Origin: Sulfurovum sp.
Lineage (GTDB): Bacteria > Campylobacterota > Campylobacteria > Campylobacterales > Sulfurovaceae
Direction of reading: 5' to 3'
NCBI GenBank assembly: GCA_027049035.1
Contig: JALTVI010000091.1
Span: 62,001 to 126,000, forward strand
Length of the DNA: 64,000 nt
The notes beneath the pieces are model-generated. The model made no database searches, was not told the DNA's origin, and was given only the letters and a program-made list of their open reading frames with translations. A program made the translations under genes and the position numbers. Below, piece by piece: positions 47,468 to 57,923 of the stretch. The stretch's first letter is position 1. Each line of letters starts with the position of its first letter.

Positions 47468-47603
47468 ATGGACTTGCATCAACTTTATTTTATATAGATT
47501 AGATTCCTACGGTGTGTAATAAAACATAATAAATCTAATAACCTTAGGTAAATCAAATATTATTTAAGAGAAATTTTATCTTAAATTGACTATAGTGGAC
47601 TTT

Positions 47604-47702
47604 CAAACTCTCGGGGTGCCATGGAAGACATGGCTGAGAAGACCCACAAAGGTCTACCCGCTGAACTTGACCCGGACAATACCGGCGTAAGGAAGAGCTT
47701 TG
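47604..47702 (+). promoter_or_regulatory. TPP riboswitch upstream of thiC
   Basis: The conserved THI-box parts occur in order: TCGGGGTGCC, GGCTGAGA, ACCCGCTGAACTTGACCCGG, CAATACCGGCGTAAGGAAGA (the last ones abutting). Outer bases CAAACTC / GAGCTTTG can form stem P1. It lies 109 bp before thiC. The rest of the leader contains a weak A/T hairpin (GAAAAAA…TTTTTTC, about 47719-47745), so control of translation initiation may be as likely as termination. The flanks of this 343-bp gap (47468-47603 and 47703-47810) hold no gene. Confidence 0.95.
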
Positions 47703-47705
47703 TAA

Positions 47706-49740
<2,035 letters not shown>

Positions 49741-53032: not shown

Positions 53033-53831
53033 GCATACACCAACGGTGCTTGTCATTGCCGGCTTCGACCCCTACGGCGGGGCAGGCATTACGATGGATA
53101 CCAAGGTCGTTCACGCCCTTGGCGGGTATGCCTTGAGTGCCGTAACGGCGATCACCGCACAGAACTCTCAGGGGGTAGCTGCCGTCGAGCCGGTGGATGC
53201 CGGGCTGCTTGAGGCACAGCTGTGTACGCTGCTTGAGGATGTGCGTGTTGATGCGGTGAAGATAGGAATGCTGGGGACCAAAGAGCTGATTGAAACCGTA
53301 GCGAAGGTACTCAAGCATTACAGACTCGGTAATGTCGTGCTTGACCCGGTTCTTGTCAGTTCAAGCGGCAAACGGCTTCTGGAGGAGGAGGCTATCGAGA
53401 CAATGGTTTACAAACTTTTTCCGCACTGCCGGCTTGTCACACCAAACCTTCCGGAGACCAATGCACTTATTGGAAGCGACTTTGCAGGAGGAGCGAAAGA
53501 GGTACCGATGATGGCACAGGCACTATTCGAATTGGGAGCGAAGAACATACTGCTCAAAGGCGGCCATACCATCGAAGAGGAGGCAGTGGACTATCTTGTA
53601 GAGCTCTCAAGCATTACCCGGTTCTGTTCTCCACGTATCGAAACGACACACACCCACGGTACCGGCTGCCTCCTTTCATCAGCAATTGCCACAGAACTTG
53701 CAAAGGGGGAGAGCCTGGCGCAGAGTGTCAAGCATGCAAAACACTTCCTCTTTGAAAAGCTCAAGCACGCTTCGGCACTTTCACTGGCATATACGAGTGA
53801 TGCCACGGAGCGAAAAGAGCCCATTTTTTAA
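53022..53831 (+). CDS. thiD: hydroxymethylpyrimidine (phosphate) kinase
   Basis: The 269-residue ribokinase-fold enzyme phosphorylates HMP and HMP phosphate. The substrate motif AGFDPYGGAGI replaces the more usual A-G-x-D-P-S-G-G-A-G-I. A-V-K-I-G-M-L-G, D-P-V-L-V-S-S-S-G and the catalytic anion hole HGTGCLLSSAIA are present. It starts inside the end of thiE (11-bp overlap). It is the last gene of the synthesis cluster. Confidence 0.93.
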   Translation: MASEHTPTVLVIAGFDPYGGAGITMDTKVVHALGGYALSAVTAITAQNSQGVAAVEPVDAGLLEAQLCTLLEDVRVDAVKIGMLGTKELIETVAKVLKHYRLGNVVLDPVLVSSSGKRLLEEEAIETMVYKLFPHCRLVTPNLPETNALIGSDFAGGAKEVPMMAQALFELGAKNILLKGGHTIEEEAVDYLVELSSITRFCSPRIETTHTHGTGCLLSSAIATELAKGESLAQSVKHAKHFLFEKLKHASALSLAYTSDATERKEPIF

Positions 53832-53889
53832 TAAGAGATTTTTTATCCTATTTAAGCCTTTTTAAATTGATTGTAATGTATAACCTACA

Positions 53890-54162
53890 TATTACCGAAC
53901 CAACGGGTAGTCTGAGCTTTTGAGAGGATGAGACCAGGTAAGATGTGCGTTAAAAAGCCTGAAGGACTGTCCGTAGACAATTCAAAGATTTTTTTGCGTG
54001 CAGGTTGCCTGGTATCATCCTCCCCAAAGGGTGCAGCACTTTCGCCCACATACCGCGTTAGATTTTCTTGAATTAGCCTCCGGCTAGTCCTGCAAAAATC
54101 TGCCTTGCCTGTGAACGAAATTGTTGCATCAAAAATTCAGACTATCCGTTGGTTAGGTAATA
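53890..54162. mobile_element. MITE-like element with 34-bp imperfect terminal inverted repeats
   Basis: The left end (53890-53923) and the reverse complement of the right end (54129-54162) agree at 30 of 34 bases, both beginning TATTACC and sharing AACCAACGG and TAGTCTGA. The outermost TA on each side could be a TA target duplication, as for Tc1/mariner-type MITEs. A second stem lies inside: GAGGATGAGACCAGG (53924-53938) against CCTGGTATCATCCTC (54009-54023). There is no coding capacity. The right end abuts the TPP riboswitch exactly. A TATAAC box at 53879-53884 would place the element within the leader RNA. Confidence 0.65.
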
Positions 54163-54238
54163 AACTCTCGGGGTGCTCTATGAGCTGAGATACCACCCGC
54201 AGAACTTGACCCGGACAATGCCGGCGTAAGGAAGAGTT
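54163..54238 (+). promoter_or_regulatory. TPP riboswitch upstream of the thiamine uptake operon
   Basis: It contains CTCGGGGTGCT, AGCTGAGATACCACCCGC, AGAACTTGACCCGG and ACAATGCCGGCGTAAGGAAG in THI-box order. P1 is formed by AACTCT / AGAGTT. It lies 69 bp before the TonB-receptor start. Binding of TPP should lower expression of the whole uptake and salvage set. The other parts of the gap between thiD and the receptor hold the MITE-like element and AT-rich promoter-like DNA, and no gene. Confidence 0.95.
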
Positions 54239-54306
54239 GTACTGCATAAATGTACCTTCTGCTTGCTGCCTCCCGCATTCTCCGAAACTATTTTGAGGAA
54301 AAATCT

Positions 54307-56367
54307 ATGAAAAAAAGACTGTTACCGTTATCTGTAGCTGCCATAAGTGCACTGGGAAGTTCACTGCTTATGGCTGAAGAGGTGAGTTTAGACCCTGTGG
54401 TTGTCAATGCGGACTTCCGTTCTCAAAAACTTTCTGAAACATCCGGAAGTGTATCTGTTATTGATGAGTCACAATTGGCGGATAAGACACAAGCACCACT
54501 TTTTGAGGTGGTTGGTGCACTGCCAAATGTTAACTTTACTGCCGGTGCATCCAAGTCAAAATATATCCAGATACGGGGAATTGGTGAACGCAGCCAGTTT
54601 GAAACACCAATCAACCCCTCTGTAGGTCTTATCGTAGATGGTATCGATTTTTCTCAGTTGACACTAGGGGCGACACTGTTTGATGTCAAGCAGATTGAAG
54701 TACTGCGTGGTCCGCAGGGGACGACATTTGGTGCCAACGGTTTGGCAGGAGTCATAACGGTTGAGAGCAATCCTCCGACAGAAGAGACAGAAGGACATAT
54801 AGAAGCCGGTATCGGTAACTATGGCAGTTATACATTGGGTGCTGCAGTCGGCGGGACACTTATAGAAAATAAACTGATTGGACGTATCAGTGTGTTTCAA
54901 AACAGCAGTGATGGCTATATGAAAAACAGCTATCTTGGTAGGGATGATACCAACAATATCGATGAATTGACCATCAAGTCACAACTGCGCTGGTTTGTTA
55001 CAGATAGACATACCATCGATTTGAACTATATTCATGTTGATATCGATAACGGTTATGATGCCTTTACGCTGGATAACAGCAGAACTTCCCATTCCGACCA
55101 GCCTGGAAAAGATACACAAAAAACCGATGCAGTCGCTTTGCGCTCAACCTATCGTTTTGATACGATGCATCTGGTTACGGCACTGAGTTATTCGGATACA
55201 AGCTCTCTTTACAGTTATGATGAAGACTGGAGCTATGTAGGTGAGTTTAATCCTGCATTGTGGCCTTATCAAGGGTTTGACTCCTATGACAGGAAGAAAA
55301 AACAGGGAGATTTCGATATCCGTCTTGTCTCGGATGAATCAGGCCGTATCTTTTCCGGTACAACAGACTGGACGATTGGTTTGTATGCCAAAAAATATGA
55401 TGAAGATATGTACCGTTACCATCCTACAGATTACGGTGCACAGGAGCATTTCGACAGTCGCTATAATTCAAAGAATAAAGCGGTATACGGTCAGTTGGAT
55501 ATACATATAGATGAACGCTCCAAAGTGATTGCCGGACTGCGTCTGGAAGAGTGGAGTATGGATTATGATGATTCTAATGGTGTTGTGATTGATAATGACG
55601 AGACGATGGTTGGCGGTAAACTGGGATATACATTCGATAAAAACGCAAATGAACACTACTATGTTATTCTGTCACGCGGTTACAAGCCGGGCGGTGTAAA
55701 CCCAGGAACGACACTGACTGATGAAGAGAAACGTTTTGGTACCGAATCGTTGTGGAACCTTGATATAGGGCAGAATGCATCATTTTTTGATGATACACTT
55801 GTTACCCGTGTGAATCTCTTTTACGGGAAGCGTAAAGATATGCAGGTAAAACACTATAAAACCAATACGCACAGCTTTACTGATTATCTTTCTAATGCCG
55901 CGAAAGGAAGCTACTACGGTTTGGAAGCACAGGCTGACTATTACCCTGTTGATACCCTGCACCTGTATGCACAGCTTGGACTGCTGCATGCAGAGTTTGA
56001 TGAATATACCCCGGAGTTGACTGGACGTGCACCTGCTCAGTCACCAAAATATCAGTATAATGTGGGTGTGGATTATAATTTTCTTGAAAACTGGATGTTC
56101 CGTGCCAATGTGGAGGGACGTGGCAGCTACTATTTTTCTAATACTCACGATGCCAAATCTAACCCTTATGCACTCTTCAACAGCAGTCTGACTTATATGT
56201 ATGAAAACTGGACTGCAACACTTTGGGGAAGAAATCTGTTTGATGAAACATATGAGACAAGAGGGTTCTATTTTGGAAACAATCCGGGAAATGGGTATGT
56301 TGATGAACTTTATACACAAAAAGGCGACCCAAGAACCTTCGGTTTCACCCTCAGCTACGACTTTTAA
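54307..56367 (+). CDS. TonB-dependent outer-membrane receptor, probably for thiamine
   Basis: The 686-residue protein has a signal peptide (MKKRLLPLSVAAISALGSSLLMA) and a TonB-box-like start (LDPVVVNA). The plug domain (about 30-160) has IQIRGIGERSQF and VEVLRG-like IEVLRGPQGTTFG. A 22-strand barrel follows, ending LSYDF. The TPP riboswitch upstream and the thiamine-handling genes downstream point to thiamine or a precursor as ligand, not iron. The start at 54307 follows GAGGA. Confidence 0.9.
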   Translation: MKKRLLPLSVAAISALGSSLLMAEEVSLDPVVVNADFRSQKLSETSGSVSVIDESQLADKTQAPLFEVVGALPNVNFTAGASKSKYIQIRGIGERSQFETPINPSVGLIVDGIDFSQLTLGATLFDVKQIEVLRGPQGTTFGANGLAGVITVESNPPTEETEGHIEAGIGNYGSYTLGAAVGGTLIENKLIGRISVFQNSSDGYMKNSYLGRDDTNNIDELTIKSQLRWFVTDRHTIDLNYIHVDIDNGYDAFTLDNSRTSHSDQPGKDTQKTDAVALRSTYRFDTMHLVTALSYSDTSSLYSYDEDWSYVGEFNPALWPYQGFDSYDRKKKQGDFDIRLVSDESGRIFSGTTDWTIGLYAKKYDEDMYRYHPTDYGAQEHFDSRYNSKNKAVYGQLDIHIDERSKVIAGLRLEEWSMDYDDSNGVVIDNDETMVGGKLGYTFDKNANEHYYVILSRGYKPGGVNPGTTLTDEEKRFGTESLWNLDIGQNASFFDDTLVTRVNLFYGKRKDMQVKHYKTNTHSFTDYLSNAAKGSYYGLEAQADYYPVDTLHLYAQLGLLHAEFDEYTPELTGRAPAQSPKYQYNVGVDYNFLENWMFRANVEGRGSYYFSNTHDAKSNPYALFNSSLTYMYENWTATLWGRNLFDETYETRGFYFGNNPGNGYVDELYTQKGDPRTFGFTLSYDF

Positions 56368-56377
56368 AGGATAGAGT

Positions 56378-56632
56378 ATGAAAGTTTCCATCGATATCAG
56401 TATGTATCCGCTCCAAAGTGAGTTCGAAAAGCCCATCTCTGCGTTTATTGAAAGATTGGCGCGTGAGCAGAGGGTGAACATTGTGCGAACGGAGCTCAGT
56501 ACACAGGTGTATGGTGAGTACGATGTTGTTATGGGTCTGCTTACCGAAGAGATGAAAGCAGTGTTCGAGACGATGCCGCAGTCTGTCTTTGTCATCAAAA
56601 TTGTCGGTGAAGACAGAAAAGGACGCTTTTAA
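56378..56632 (+). CDS. YkoF/MTH1187-type thiamine-binding protein
   Basis: The 84-residue ferredoxin-like-fold protein opens VSIDISMYPLQSEFEKPI, has a mid-strand with VYGEYDVVM, and ends FVIKIVGEDRKGRF. These features match single-domain YkoF-type thiamine/HMP-binding proteins. No signal peptide, so it is cytoplasmic, possibly a carrier or sensor of incoming thiamine. It sits 10 bp after the receptor and abuts the transporter gene. Confidence 0.75.
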   Translation: MKVSIDISMYPLQSEFEKPISAFIERLAREQRVNIVRTELSTQVYGEYDVVMGLLTEEMKAVFETMPQSVFVIKIVGEDRKGRF

Positions 56633-57241
56633 ATGGATATCTCCGCAGCGGCCATAGCGGAAGCGTTCGCACAGATGTCGGTCTGGGAGATCGCTGCAAC
56701 ACTGCTTGGCATCGCCTATGTCGTACTGGCGGCAAAGGAGTCGCAGTGGGCGTGGCCCTTTGCCTTTTTCAGTACGCTGATCTACACCGTCATCTTCTGG
56801 GACGGAGCGTTGGTAGCCTCCTCTTTGTTGAACTTCTACTATATGGTCATGGCCGTCTATGGCTTTATGCTCTGGAAGAAAGATGAGCATGGTAAGACTC
56901 TGCCAATCAGCAGGTGGTCTCTGAAACACCATCTTGTTTTTATCGCTGCAGGGGTGGCCGGTACGCTGCTTCTTGGCTACCTCACCTCCACCTATGCCGG
57001 TGCGAAGTTCGCCTACCACGACGCGTTCGTGATGGTCTTTTCCGGCATCGCTACCTGGATGATGGCCAAGAAGGTATTGGAGAACTGGCTCTACTGGATG
57101 GTGGTCGACTCTACCGCGGCGGTGCTCTACTACAAATCAGGCTATCTGGCGACCATCGTTCTCTTTATACTCTATGTTATACTGGCATTCTACGGTTATG
57201 CAAGCTGGAAAAAGGCATACGGTGAACAGAGCCGCACTTGA
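56633..57241 (+). CDS. pnuT: PnuC-family thiamine transporter (PnuT)
   Basis: The 202-residue inner-membrane protein has seven hydrophobic segments and PnuC-family signatures: WAWPFAFFSTLIYTVIFWDG, NFYYMVMAVYGFMLWKK, ENWLYWMVVDSTAAVLYYKSG (in two parts) and the late LYVILAFYGYASWKK. The W-x-x-W-x-W-P motif near the N-terminus marks the family. The TPP riboswitch and neighbours favour thiamine (PnuT) over nicotinamide riboside. It abuts the thiamine-binding gene and overlaps the kinase gene by 20 bp. Confidence 0.88.
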   Translation: MDISAAAIAEAFAQMSVWEIAATLLGIAYVVLAAKESQWAWPFAFFSTLIYTVIFWDGALVASSLLNFYYMVMAVYGFMLWKKDEHGKTLPISRWSLKHHLVFIAAGVAGTLLLGYLTSTYAGAKFAYHDAFVMVFSGIATWMMAKKVLENWLYWMVVDSTAAVLYYKSGYLATIVLFILYVILAFYGYASWKKAYGEQSRT

Positions 57242-57923
57242 GAAGCTTCCGCTTTTCAAAGATAATCCCATACGCTCCATAACACCTGTCGGCACCCAGG
57301 GCTACTGTAACTTCAACTACCGTATCGAAACTGCAACACATACCTACCTCTGGCGGGTTTTCAAAGAGGAGGGCATCGACCGCCAAAGAGAGTTCATGCT
57401 GCAGCAAAAGGCGGCAGCACTTGGCATTGCACCCCACCCGCTGCTGCTTGACCTTGGTGCAGGATGTATGATCACGGAGTTTGTAGAGGGAGAACACCTG
57501 AAGATGTTGAGTGAGAGCCGAATGAAATCACTGGCGAAATCATTGCAAAAACTGCATACGATAGAAGTTGATATGCCGCCTTTGGTACTTTACGAACTTG
57601 TTAAAGAACATCATGAAACGATCGAACAAGCATTCGAAGTGATTGAAGCCCACCCCAAAGAGACCGTGTTGTGCCATAACGACCTCAACCCCCAAAACCT
57701 GATTTGGCAGGAGAACGAGACCACACTTGTCGATTTCGAATACGCCGCAGTCAACGACCGTTACTTCGATGTGGCAGCAGTGTGTGAAGAGTTTGGTTTT
57801 GCAGAAGCGGAACAAGAGGATTTTTGTATCTTTTACTTTGATGGAGACTATATGAACGAGAAGGTGGAAGCATATCGGGTGATTTATCGGCAGTTGTGCA
57901 AAGAGTGGTTCGAGGGGCGGTAG
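57222..57923 (+). CDS. thiamine-kinase-like phosphotransferase (choline kinase fold)
   Basis: The 233-residue aminoglycoside/choline-kinase-fold protein has TPVGTQGYCNFNYRIET (nucleotide loop) and LWRVFKEEGIDRQREF. The catalytic motif is VLCHNDLNPQNLIW and the metal motif LVDFEYAAVNDRYFDVAA. Facilitated uptake by PnuT needs trapping by phosphorylation, so this is probably a thiamine kinase. I start at GTG 57222 because AAAAAGG lies 6 nt upstream; this overlaps pnuT by 20 bp. It closes the uptake operon. Confidence 0.82.
   Translation: MNRAALEKLPLFKDNPIRSITPVGTQGYCNFNYRIETATHTYLWRVFKEEGIDRQREFMLQQKAAALGIAPHPLLLDLGAGCMITEFVEGEHLKMLSESRMKSLAKSLQKLHTIEVDMPPLVLYELVKEHHETIEQAFEVIEAHPKETVLCHNDLNPQNLIWQENETTLVDFEYAAVNDRYFDVAAVCEEFGFAEAEQEDFCIFYFDGDYMNEKVEAYRVIYRQLCKEWFEGR

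Follow-up and report, generated by a model that had tools for sequence, protein, structure and literature searches.

In the window analysed here (a 64,000-nucleotide stretch of a Sulfurovum sp. contig), a folded sequence with inverted ends lies at the start of an operon, directly ahead of a TPP riboswitch. What is this sequence, how did it come to lie there, and what could it do to the leader? We hold with good confidence that it is a non-autonomous MITE with IS630 ends, inserted at a TA at the operon start, and that its core belongs to a Campylobacterota-wide superfamily with exchanged ends. This confidence applies to the local explanation and is lower for the route by which ends were exchanged.

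Structure of the element and its locus

Inverted-repeat analysis bore out the 34-bp imperfect terminal repeats reported in the first-pass annotation. The arms at 53890-53923 and 54129-54162 are 34 nt long, pair at 30 of 34 positions (88%) and have 205 nt between them. TA is present at the left and right ends of 53890-54162, and the stretch has no substantial reading frame (the longest listed ORF has 54 codons, on the minus strand), as that annotation had also stated. The element proper is 53892-54160, a 269-bp sequence of the form TTACC...GGTAA with TA outside each end.

Folding of 53888-54164 gave -125.3 kcal/mol, against a mean of -67.9 (sd 5.1) for dinucleotide shuffles (z -11.3), and 0 of 200 shuffles folded as well. 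An internal second stem had been noted earlier. The interior is indeed folded, but the prediction gives two long hairpins around a CCC-AAA-GGG mini-hairpin rather than a single stem. The right end had been described as flush with stem P1 of the riboswitch; the two adjoin, but riboswitch P1 begins one base past the right TA. An Rfam search over the element (gathering score or E up to 10) returned only the adjoining TPP riboswitch and chance hits, and with nothing credible inside the element a known Rfam RNA family was ruled out.

The features of the locus are the following.

53879-53884, forward strand: -10 box TATAAC of the thiamine-uptake operon (sequence; conserved TATAA in relatives' leaders)
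53890-53891, no strand: left TA target copy (sequence; TA-rich target among 47 family members)
53892-54160, forward strand: IS630-type MITE, 269 bp (copies, terminal inverted repeat, match of the terminal inverted repeat to IS630 elements)
53892-53923, forward strand: left terminal inverted repeat, the 5' arm of the element's outer stem P1 (inverted-repeat analysis)
53924-54022, forward strand: hairpin A of the core, limits approximate (fold and 30-element consensus; 53953-53993 matches, on the minus strand at E 3.8e-4, covariance model R1, the hairpin-B unit, built partly from the window's own 54046-54117)
54023-54031, forward strand: central mini-hairpin CCC-AAA-GGG (fold; pairs retained in 29-30 of 30 aligned elements)
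54032-54128, forward strand: hairpin B of the core, limits approximate, with conserved unpaired CGTTA and TGCCTTG (R1 unit 54046-54117; consensus fold)
54129-54160, forward strand: right terminal inverted repeat, the 3' arm of the element's outer stem P1 (inverted-repeat analysis)
54161-54162, no strand: right TA target copy (sequence; family of 47)
54159-54249, forward strand: TPP riboswitch aptamer, stem P1 from 54164 (Rfam RF00059, 71.3 bits; gathering score 54.3)
54307-56367, forward strand: TonB-dependent receptor, first gene of the operon (Pfam PF00593, PF07715)
56378-56632, forward strand: thiamine-binding-protein-like gene (Pfam PF01910, 23.5 bits, just below the cut-off of 24.9)
56633-57241, forward strand: PnuC/PnuT-like transporter (Pfam PF04973)
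57174-57923, forward strand: kinase of APH/choline-kinase type, probably a thiamine kinase (Pfam PF01636; thiamine from context)

We call this a thiamine-uptake operon because the neighbouring genes fit that role. A Pfam search placed thiE-like and thiD-like genes upstream of the element. The window also holds a second TPP riboswitch (47602-47710, 72.3 bits), upstream of thiamine biosynthesis genes.

Further copies and loci without the element

The first-pass annotation had called the sequence MITE-like and proposed looking for more copies with the same termini. The own genome (2.49 Mb in 92 contigs) has one further copy, with 85% identity over 245 bp. Among 100 related genomes, at least 35 contain a match with E 0.01 or better; some of these matches are fragments only, and copy numbers per genome are lower bounds. 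The complete, single-contig genome G015 has at least seven copies, and a scan for the terminal sequences shows more pairs at the same spacing; G020 has at least seven matches of equal score. With L001, L006 and L022 left out beforehand, 40 full-length copies aligned end to end. A search of 72,556 plasmid and 50,697 phage records with the element gave no match.

The same annotation had looked to an empty site for proof of insertion. The receptor gene is present in 44 of 61 genus-level genomes and we examined 30 loci, the own genome included in both counts. The element is absent from all 29 receptor loci of relatives, which come from diverged species and do not resolve the exact target base, and the own locus is the sole carrier among the 30. 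Of 20 receptor loci submitted to Rfam, again including our own, 19 have a TPP riboswitch. Conservation of the sequence at this locus in distant relatives, with compensating changes, had been named as the mark of an RNA element. At the thiamine locus no such conservation was found. Compensating changes do occur in copies at other loci, and structure has therefore been conserved along with mobility. Copies, termini, TA target and element-free loci together support the MITE reading.

Copies recur in one particular intergenic region. The plsY-nadA spacer carries the element or element-like sequence at L042, L115, L368 and L372, and a plsY-nadA element is colinear in two genera at 66.6%. Deep orthology of this insertion was rejected, as 28 of 30 nadA loci have no element match at E 1e-4; L368 and L372 give weak matches and have a widened gap. 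Because nadA loci are mostly element-free, repeated insertion is likelier than orthology, and the distribution points to an insertion hotspot.

Some individual copies have local peculiarities. At L056 (G057, contig C159), two partial matches overlap, adjacent and in the same orientation, which suggests an internal duplication. L117 and L133, both in G138, lie at different chromosomal places within identical flanks of at least 450 bp, so here a longer repeat carries the element. Element-like sequence occurs upstream of hemE at the same position in two genomes (L068 and L072), with 32 of 265 positions different.

IS630-family ends and a TA target

Aligned insertion sites of 47 family members have T at -2 in 37, A at -1 in 43, T at +1 in 42 and A at +2 in 37. 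Longer duplications, beyond 2 bp, are no commoner than chance. An empty site had been expected to show a TA duplication; such a duplication is seen in 27 of the 47, against 25.6 by re-pairing, and since the target is always TA it is inseparable from target preference.

The source of the ends was traced through G057, one of eight genomes scanned for the terminal inverted repeats (TIRs). Six contig ends in G057 have the identical element end TTACGGCACTAACTAAACA directly after TA. A 31-residue reading-frame tail at this element end matches IS630-family transposases from Aliarcobacter/Arcobacter plasmids (best E 3e-4). IS630 elements of Arcobacter and Aliarcobacter have TIRs TTACTTCACCGATAAATAATCTGAA and TTACTCCACTAATAAACTAA, each preceded by TA, and one of them encodes a DDE_3 transposase (Pfam). 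These plasmid elements resemble the window element in their TA target and in TIRs that begin TTAC(T)NCAC, and they differ from it in carrying a transposase gene. Because the TIR pattern is shared, with TA outside, the ends of the window element are, judged by sequence likeness, IS630-family (Tc1/mariner-type) ends. The element thus shows the marks of an IS630-type MITE: IS630-like TIRs, a TA target, multiple copies without a transposase gene, and element-free loci in relatives.

In the 92 contigs of the own genome, neither the TIR scan nor a query with the 31-residue transposase tail found an IS630 copy with the window's ends. Most likely, an IS630 transposase acting in trans moved the window copy, inserting it at a TA on the start of the thiamine-uptake operon.

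Position between promoter and riboswitch

A pattern parser placed riboswitch P1 in 23 of the 29 relatives' loci (6 were not parsed), and 21 of these 23 leaders have TATAA ahead of the riboswitch. In 20 of the 21 the box lies 10-14 nt before riboswitch P1; L095 has two TATAA boxes, the last one 2 nt before riboswitch P1. The parsed leaders of L076 and L077 have no TATAA. With the element and one TA removed from the window, the TATAAC box comes to lie 8 nt before riboswitch P1. Because the usual spacing is 10-14 nt, the element would sit on the predicted transcription start, and +1 of the operon would fall at about 53891.

Two alternatives had been set out at first pass: that the upstream TATAAC is the promoter, with the element transcribed as a folded 5' extension of the leader, or that the element itself supplies the promoter. 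Conservation of the upstream box at these loci favours the former. We regard the latter as improbable. Some bacterial MITEs do carry promoters (PMC2229807), and the right end of the element, beside the leader, is AT-rich. However, a generic sigma-70 scan of 53780-54320 found no promoter, neither in the element nor around it, and the conserved TATAAC box is intact directly upstream.

The insertion left the -10 box and the riboswitch in place; with transcription from this box, the element would have become part of the transcript. In the predicted fold of 53891-54249 both parts keep their structure, the expected number of pairs between element and riboswitch being 0.03. The transcript thus probably gains a folded 5' extension of 273 nt, which stops just short of riboswitch P1 and leaves the riboswitch fold undisturbed. 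The likely outcome is a lengthened and very stable 5' end, which could shield the transcript or delay early steps; a rewired control of the operon, as proposed at first pass, would be a putative consequence. Here an insertion has naturally and cleanly separated a conserved promoter from a TPP riboswitch, and the locus is suited to asking how much lengthening a 5' leader tolerates.

A conserved core with exchanged ends

Weak partial matches among related genomes proved to be whole elements of the same layout with unrelated ends. At E 0.001, model R1, built from 16 sequences of hairpin B, found matches in 17 of 150 Campylobacterota genomes. Hairpins A and B carry inverted copies of one motif, as R1 matches hairpin A on the opposite strand. 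An exact-pattern search of the genome collection gave 81 stretches, all Campylobacterota by name among the matches listed. Elements of 255-310 bp were obtained at 68 of 110 loci, most of them 263-280 bp long with outer stems of mostly ~30-36 bp; the other loci are contig edges, short forms, misplaced arms or loci without a clear inverted repeat, and some elements enter these two sets, the core folds and the JALUKJ core comparison below twice (L107/L132, L109/L194, L002/L108, L021/L106 and others).

The outer-stem sequences fall into several unrelated classes, and these differ in target duplication. In a class with 4-bp (TTAA-like) duplications, 12 of 26 elements are flanked by a duplication, against 3.2 expected by re-pairing. 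In a 3-bp class the count is 9 of 19, against 2.6 expected, and 9 of 17 after clean-up, as the set of 19 holds one element in both orientations (L119 and L331) and a member of the 4-bp class (L144). The AGTACC list is contaminated by other end classes and nothing was drawn from it. Duplications of 3 bp (ANT) and 4 bp (YTAR) are typical of IS5-family subgroups. No transposase was found for the 3-bp and 4-bp end classes; DDE_Tnp_1 is absent from 9 of the 12 carriers searched and present in 3. As a candidate autonomous GGGCACC-ended element, spans of 4.8 kb and 357 bp in G098 were rejected, having no transposase recognisable by eye.

Core identity across classes reaches 0.92 for L140/L159, 0.89 for L170/L173 and 0.87 for L134 (3-bp duplication) and L318 (GGGC-type ends), where shuffled cores average 0.58. 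The ends of these three pairs are 0.30-0.48 identical, around the chance mean of 0.40 and below its 95% point of 0.52. L138/L183 (core 0.95) has related ends (0.78) and was not counted as an exchange. Elements under one MAG prefix, JALUKJ (L140, L156, L198, L201 and L209), have CTAGTACC-type and AAGTACC-type ends on cores that are ~0.90 alike. Because cores up to 92% alike carry ends at chance likeness, the conserved core has changed transposon ends repeatedly.

We suggest a route in which one new end is captured and the other arm is then copied from it by template switching in the palindrome. Throughout the superfamily, the core has two hairpins with inverted motif copies around a CCC...GGG hairpin, inside outer stems of ~33 bp, and these stems have been replaced by the termini of other transposons, which differ in target duplication. 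More tentatively, at somewhat less than even confidence, we propose that this folded non-coding core survives across Campylobacterota by changing its ends (IS630-like and others, with duplications of 2, 3 and 4 bp) and so parasitises several unrelated transposition systems. A host factor would then recognise, in folded DNA or RNA, the conserved unpaired motifs that occur twice, as inverted copies, in the two hairpins; capture of one end and correction of the palindrome would keep renewing the arms.

MITEs are usually described as deletion products of one transposon, tied to its ends. If one core occurs with three or more kinds of ends and duplications, a non-coding element would be able to switch the enzyme that mobilises it; the mosaic of core and ends makes such a change directly testable. 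In the literature searched we found no printed account of a superfamily with exchanged ends, and to our knowledge it is new.

Alternatively, the core, mobile or useful to the host, could have come first, and the outer stems could be palindromes of its targets. A conserved core with differing outer stems is what this would predict, and short palindromes with the outer stem alone do occur (L282-L287, ~54-66 bp). We consider it very unlikely, since copies at different loci of one genome have the same outer stem, with the target duplications beyond it. The short palindromes were rejected as empty targets of the core: at least three (L284, L286 and L287) have asymmetric junctions like those of internal deletions. 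L282 and L283 look symmetric; set beside full copies, they were taken for deletions as well. Exchange of ends around a conserved core is the reading that we retain.

Conservation of the fold, strand and sister genome

Thirty elements of mixed end classes share one consensus fold of 95 pairs, 84 of which have changed on both sides. Stripped of the outer stem, cores fold with a median z of -6.9 (window strand) or -5.8 (opposite strand), and the window strand is the better of the two in 30 of 40, some elements counted twice. Among copies of the window's own end class, 38 of 40 fold better on the window strand. Leaving out columns whose commonest pair is G-T, the ratio of G-T to A-C mismatches is 19:18 in element P1, 63:21 in hairpin A and 24:31 in hairpin B; element P1 of the window's end class has 34 G-T against 68 A-C. 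Among 93 elements placed relative to genes, 26 are sense, 20 antisense, 36 between divergent and 11 between convergent genes. The evidence is mixed, with no clear preference for folding on one RNA strand, and strand-specific selection on RNA is not claimed. We therefore read the structure as kept mainly at the DNA level, with RNA effects possible.

The sister genome G002 has the same thiamine-locus insertion, and its contig ends within the element; 1732 bp are colinear at 90.5%. The insertion would thus predate the split from this sister species. At this locus the element differs at 6 of 229 positions, the thi flank at 152 of 1443 and thiD third positions at 78 of 273. A second common insertion (L002 1501-1773, on contig C15 of the own genome, and L041) has 6 differences in 269 positions of the element, and 58 of 492 and 25 of 491 in its flanks. 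Change is slow at both insertions, which points to the element itself and not to the thiamine leader as the cause.

These data bear on whether the element serves chiefly as a structured RNA in the thiamine leader, kept for regulating the operon jointly with the riboswitch. Its very stable fold, the better folding of the window strand in its own end class, the excess of G-T in hairpin A on that strand and the low divergence of the element beside the thi genes would all fit such a role. We nevertheless give it little credence. Copies lie at unrelated loci and the relatives' receptor loci are without the element; element P1 and hairpin B show no strand preference, and element P1 of the window's class leans the opposite way. 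Sense and antisense placements are not far apart, and the second common insertion, away from the riboswitch, is equally conserved.

Another explanation, which we judge unlikely although distinctly less so, is that the covariation arises from palindrome correction by template switching, without selection on structure. Outer arms are often perfect (34 of 34 in L136 and L159, for example), changes go mostly from one Watson-Crick pair to another, and the lack of strand preference in element P1 and hairpin B would follow. Correction alone is insufficient, however, because the sequence of the unpaired CGTTA and TGCCTTG and of the CCC...GGG hairpin is preserved from one end class to another.

Comparison with known systems

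Within the accounts consulted, the nearest known kind is RUP of Streptococcus pneumoniae. Like the window element, RUP is non-coding and palindromic, uses a TA target and has ends resembling those of an IS630 element, in its case IS630-Spn1 (PMC3049150, PMC2229807). It is 107 bp long and belongs to another phylum, whereas the window element has 269 bp and a four-stem core that is also found with other ends. Identity with RUP was rejected on length, phylum and the lack of plasmid or phage matches, and the window element is a further IS630-type MITE. As described in PMC2229807, Correia/NEMIS and ERIC are likewise folded MITEs that end in TA and whose stems are reported to let them act on transcripts; at 107/155 bp (Correia) and 127 bp (ERIC) they are shorter than the window element. 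REP/REPIN sequences, by their description GTAG-tagged palindromes of 20-40 bp associated with a RAYT transposase (PMC3733652), are set apart by size and ends. A repeat beside riboswitches in a leader, as here, is reported for the BOX element and T-box riboswitches of S. pneumoniae (PMC3049150). BOX and T-box form a composite RNA, whereas the window element and its TPP riboswitch are predicted to fold separately.
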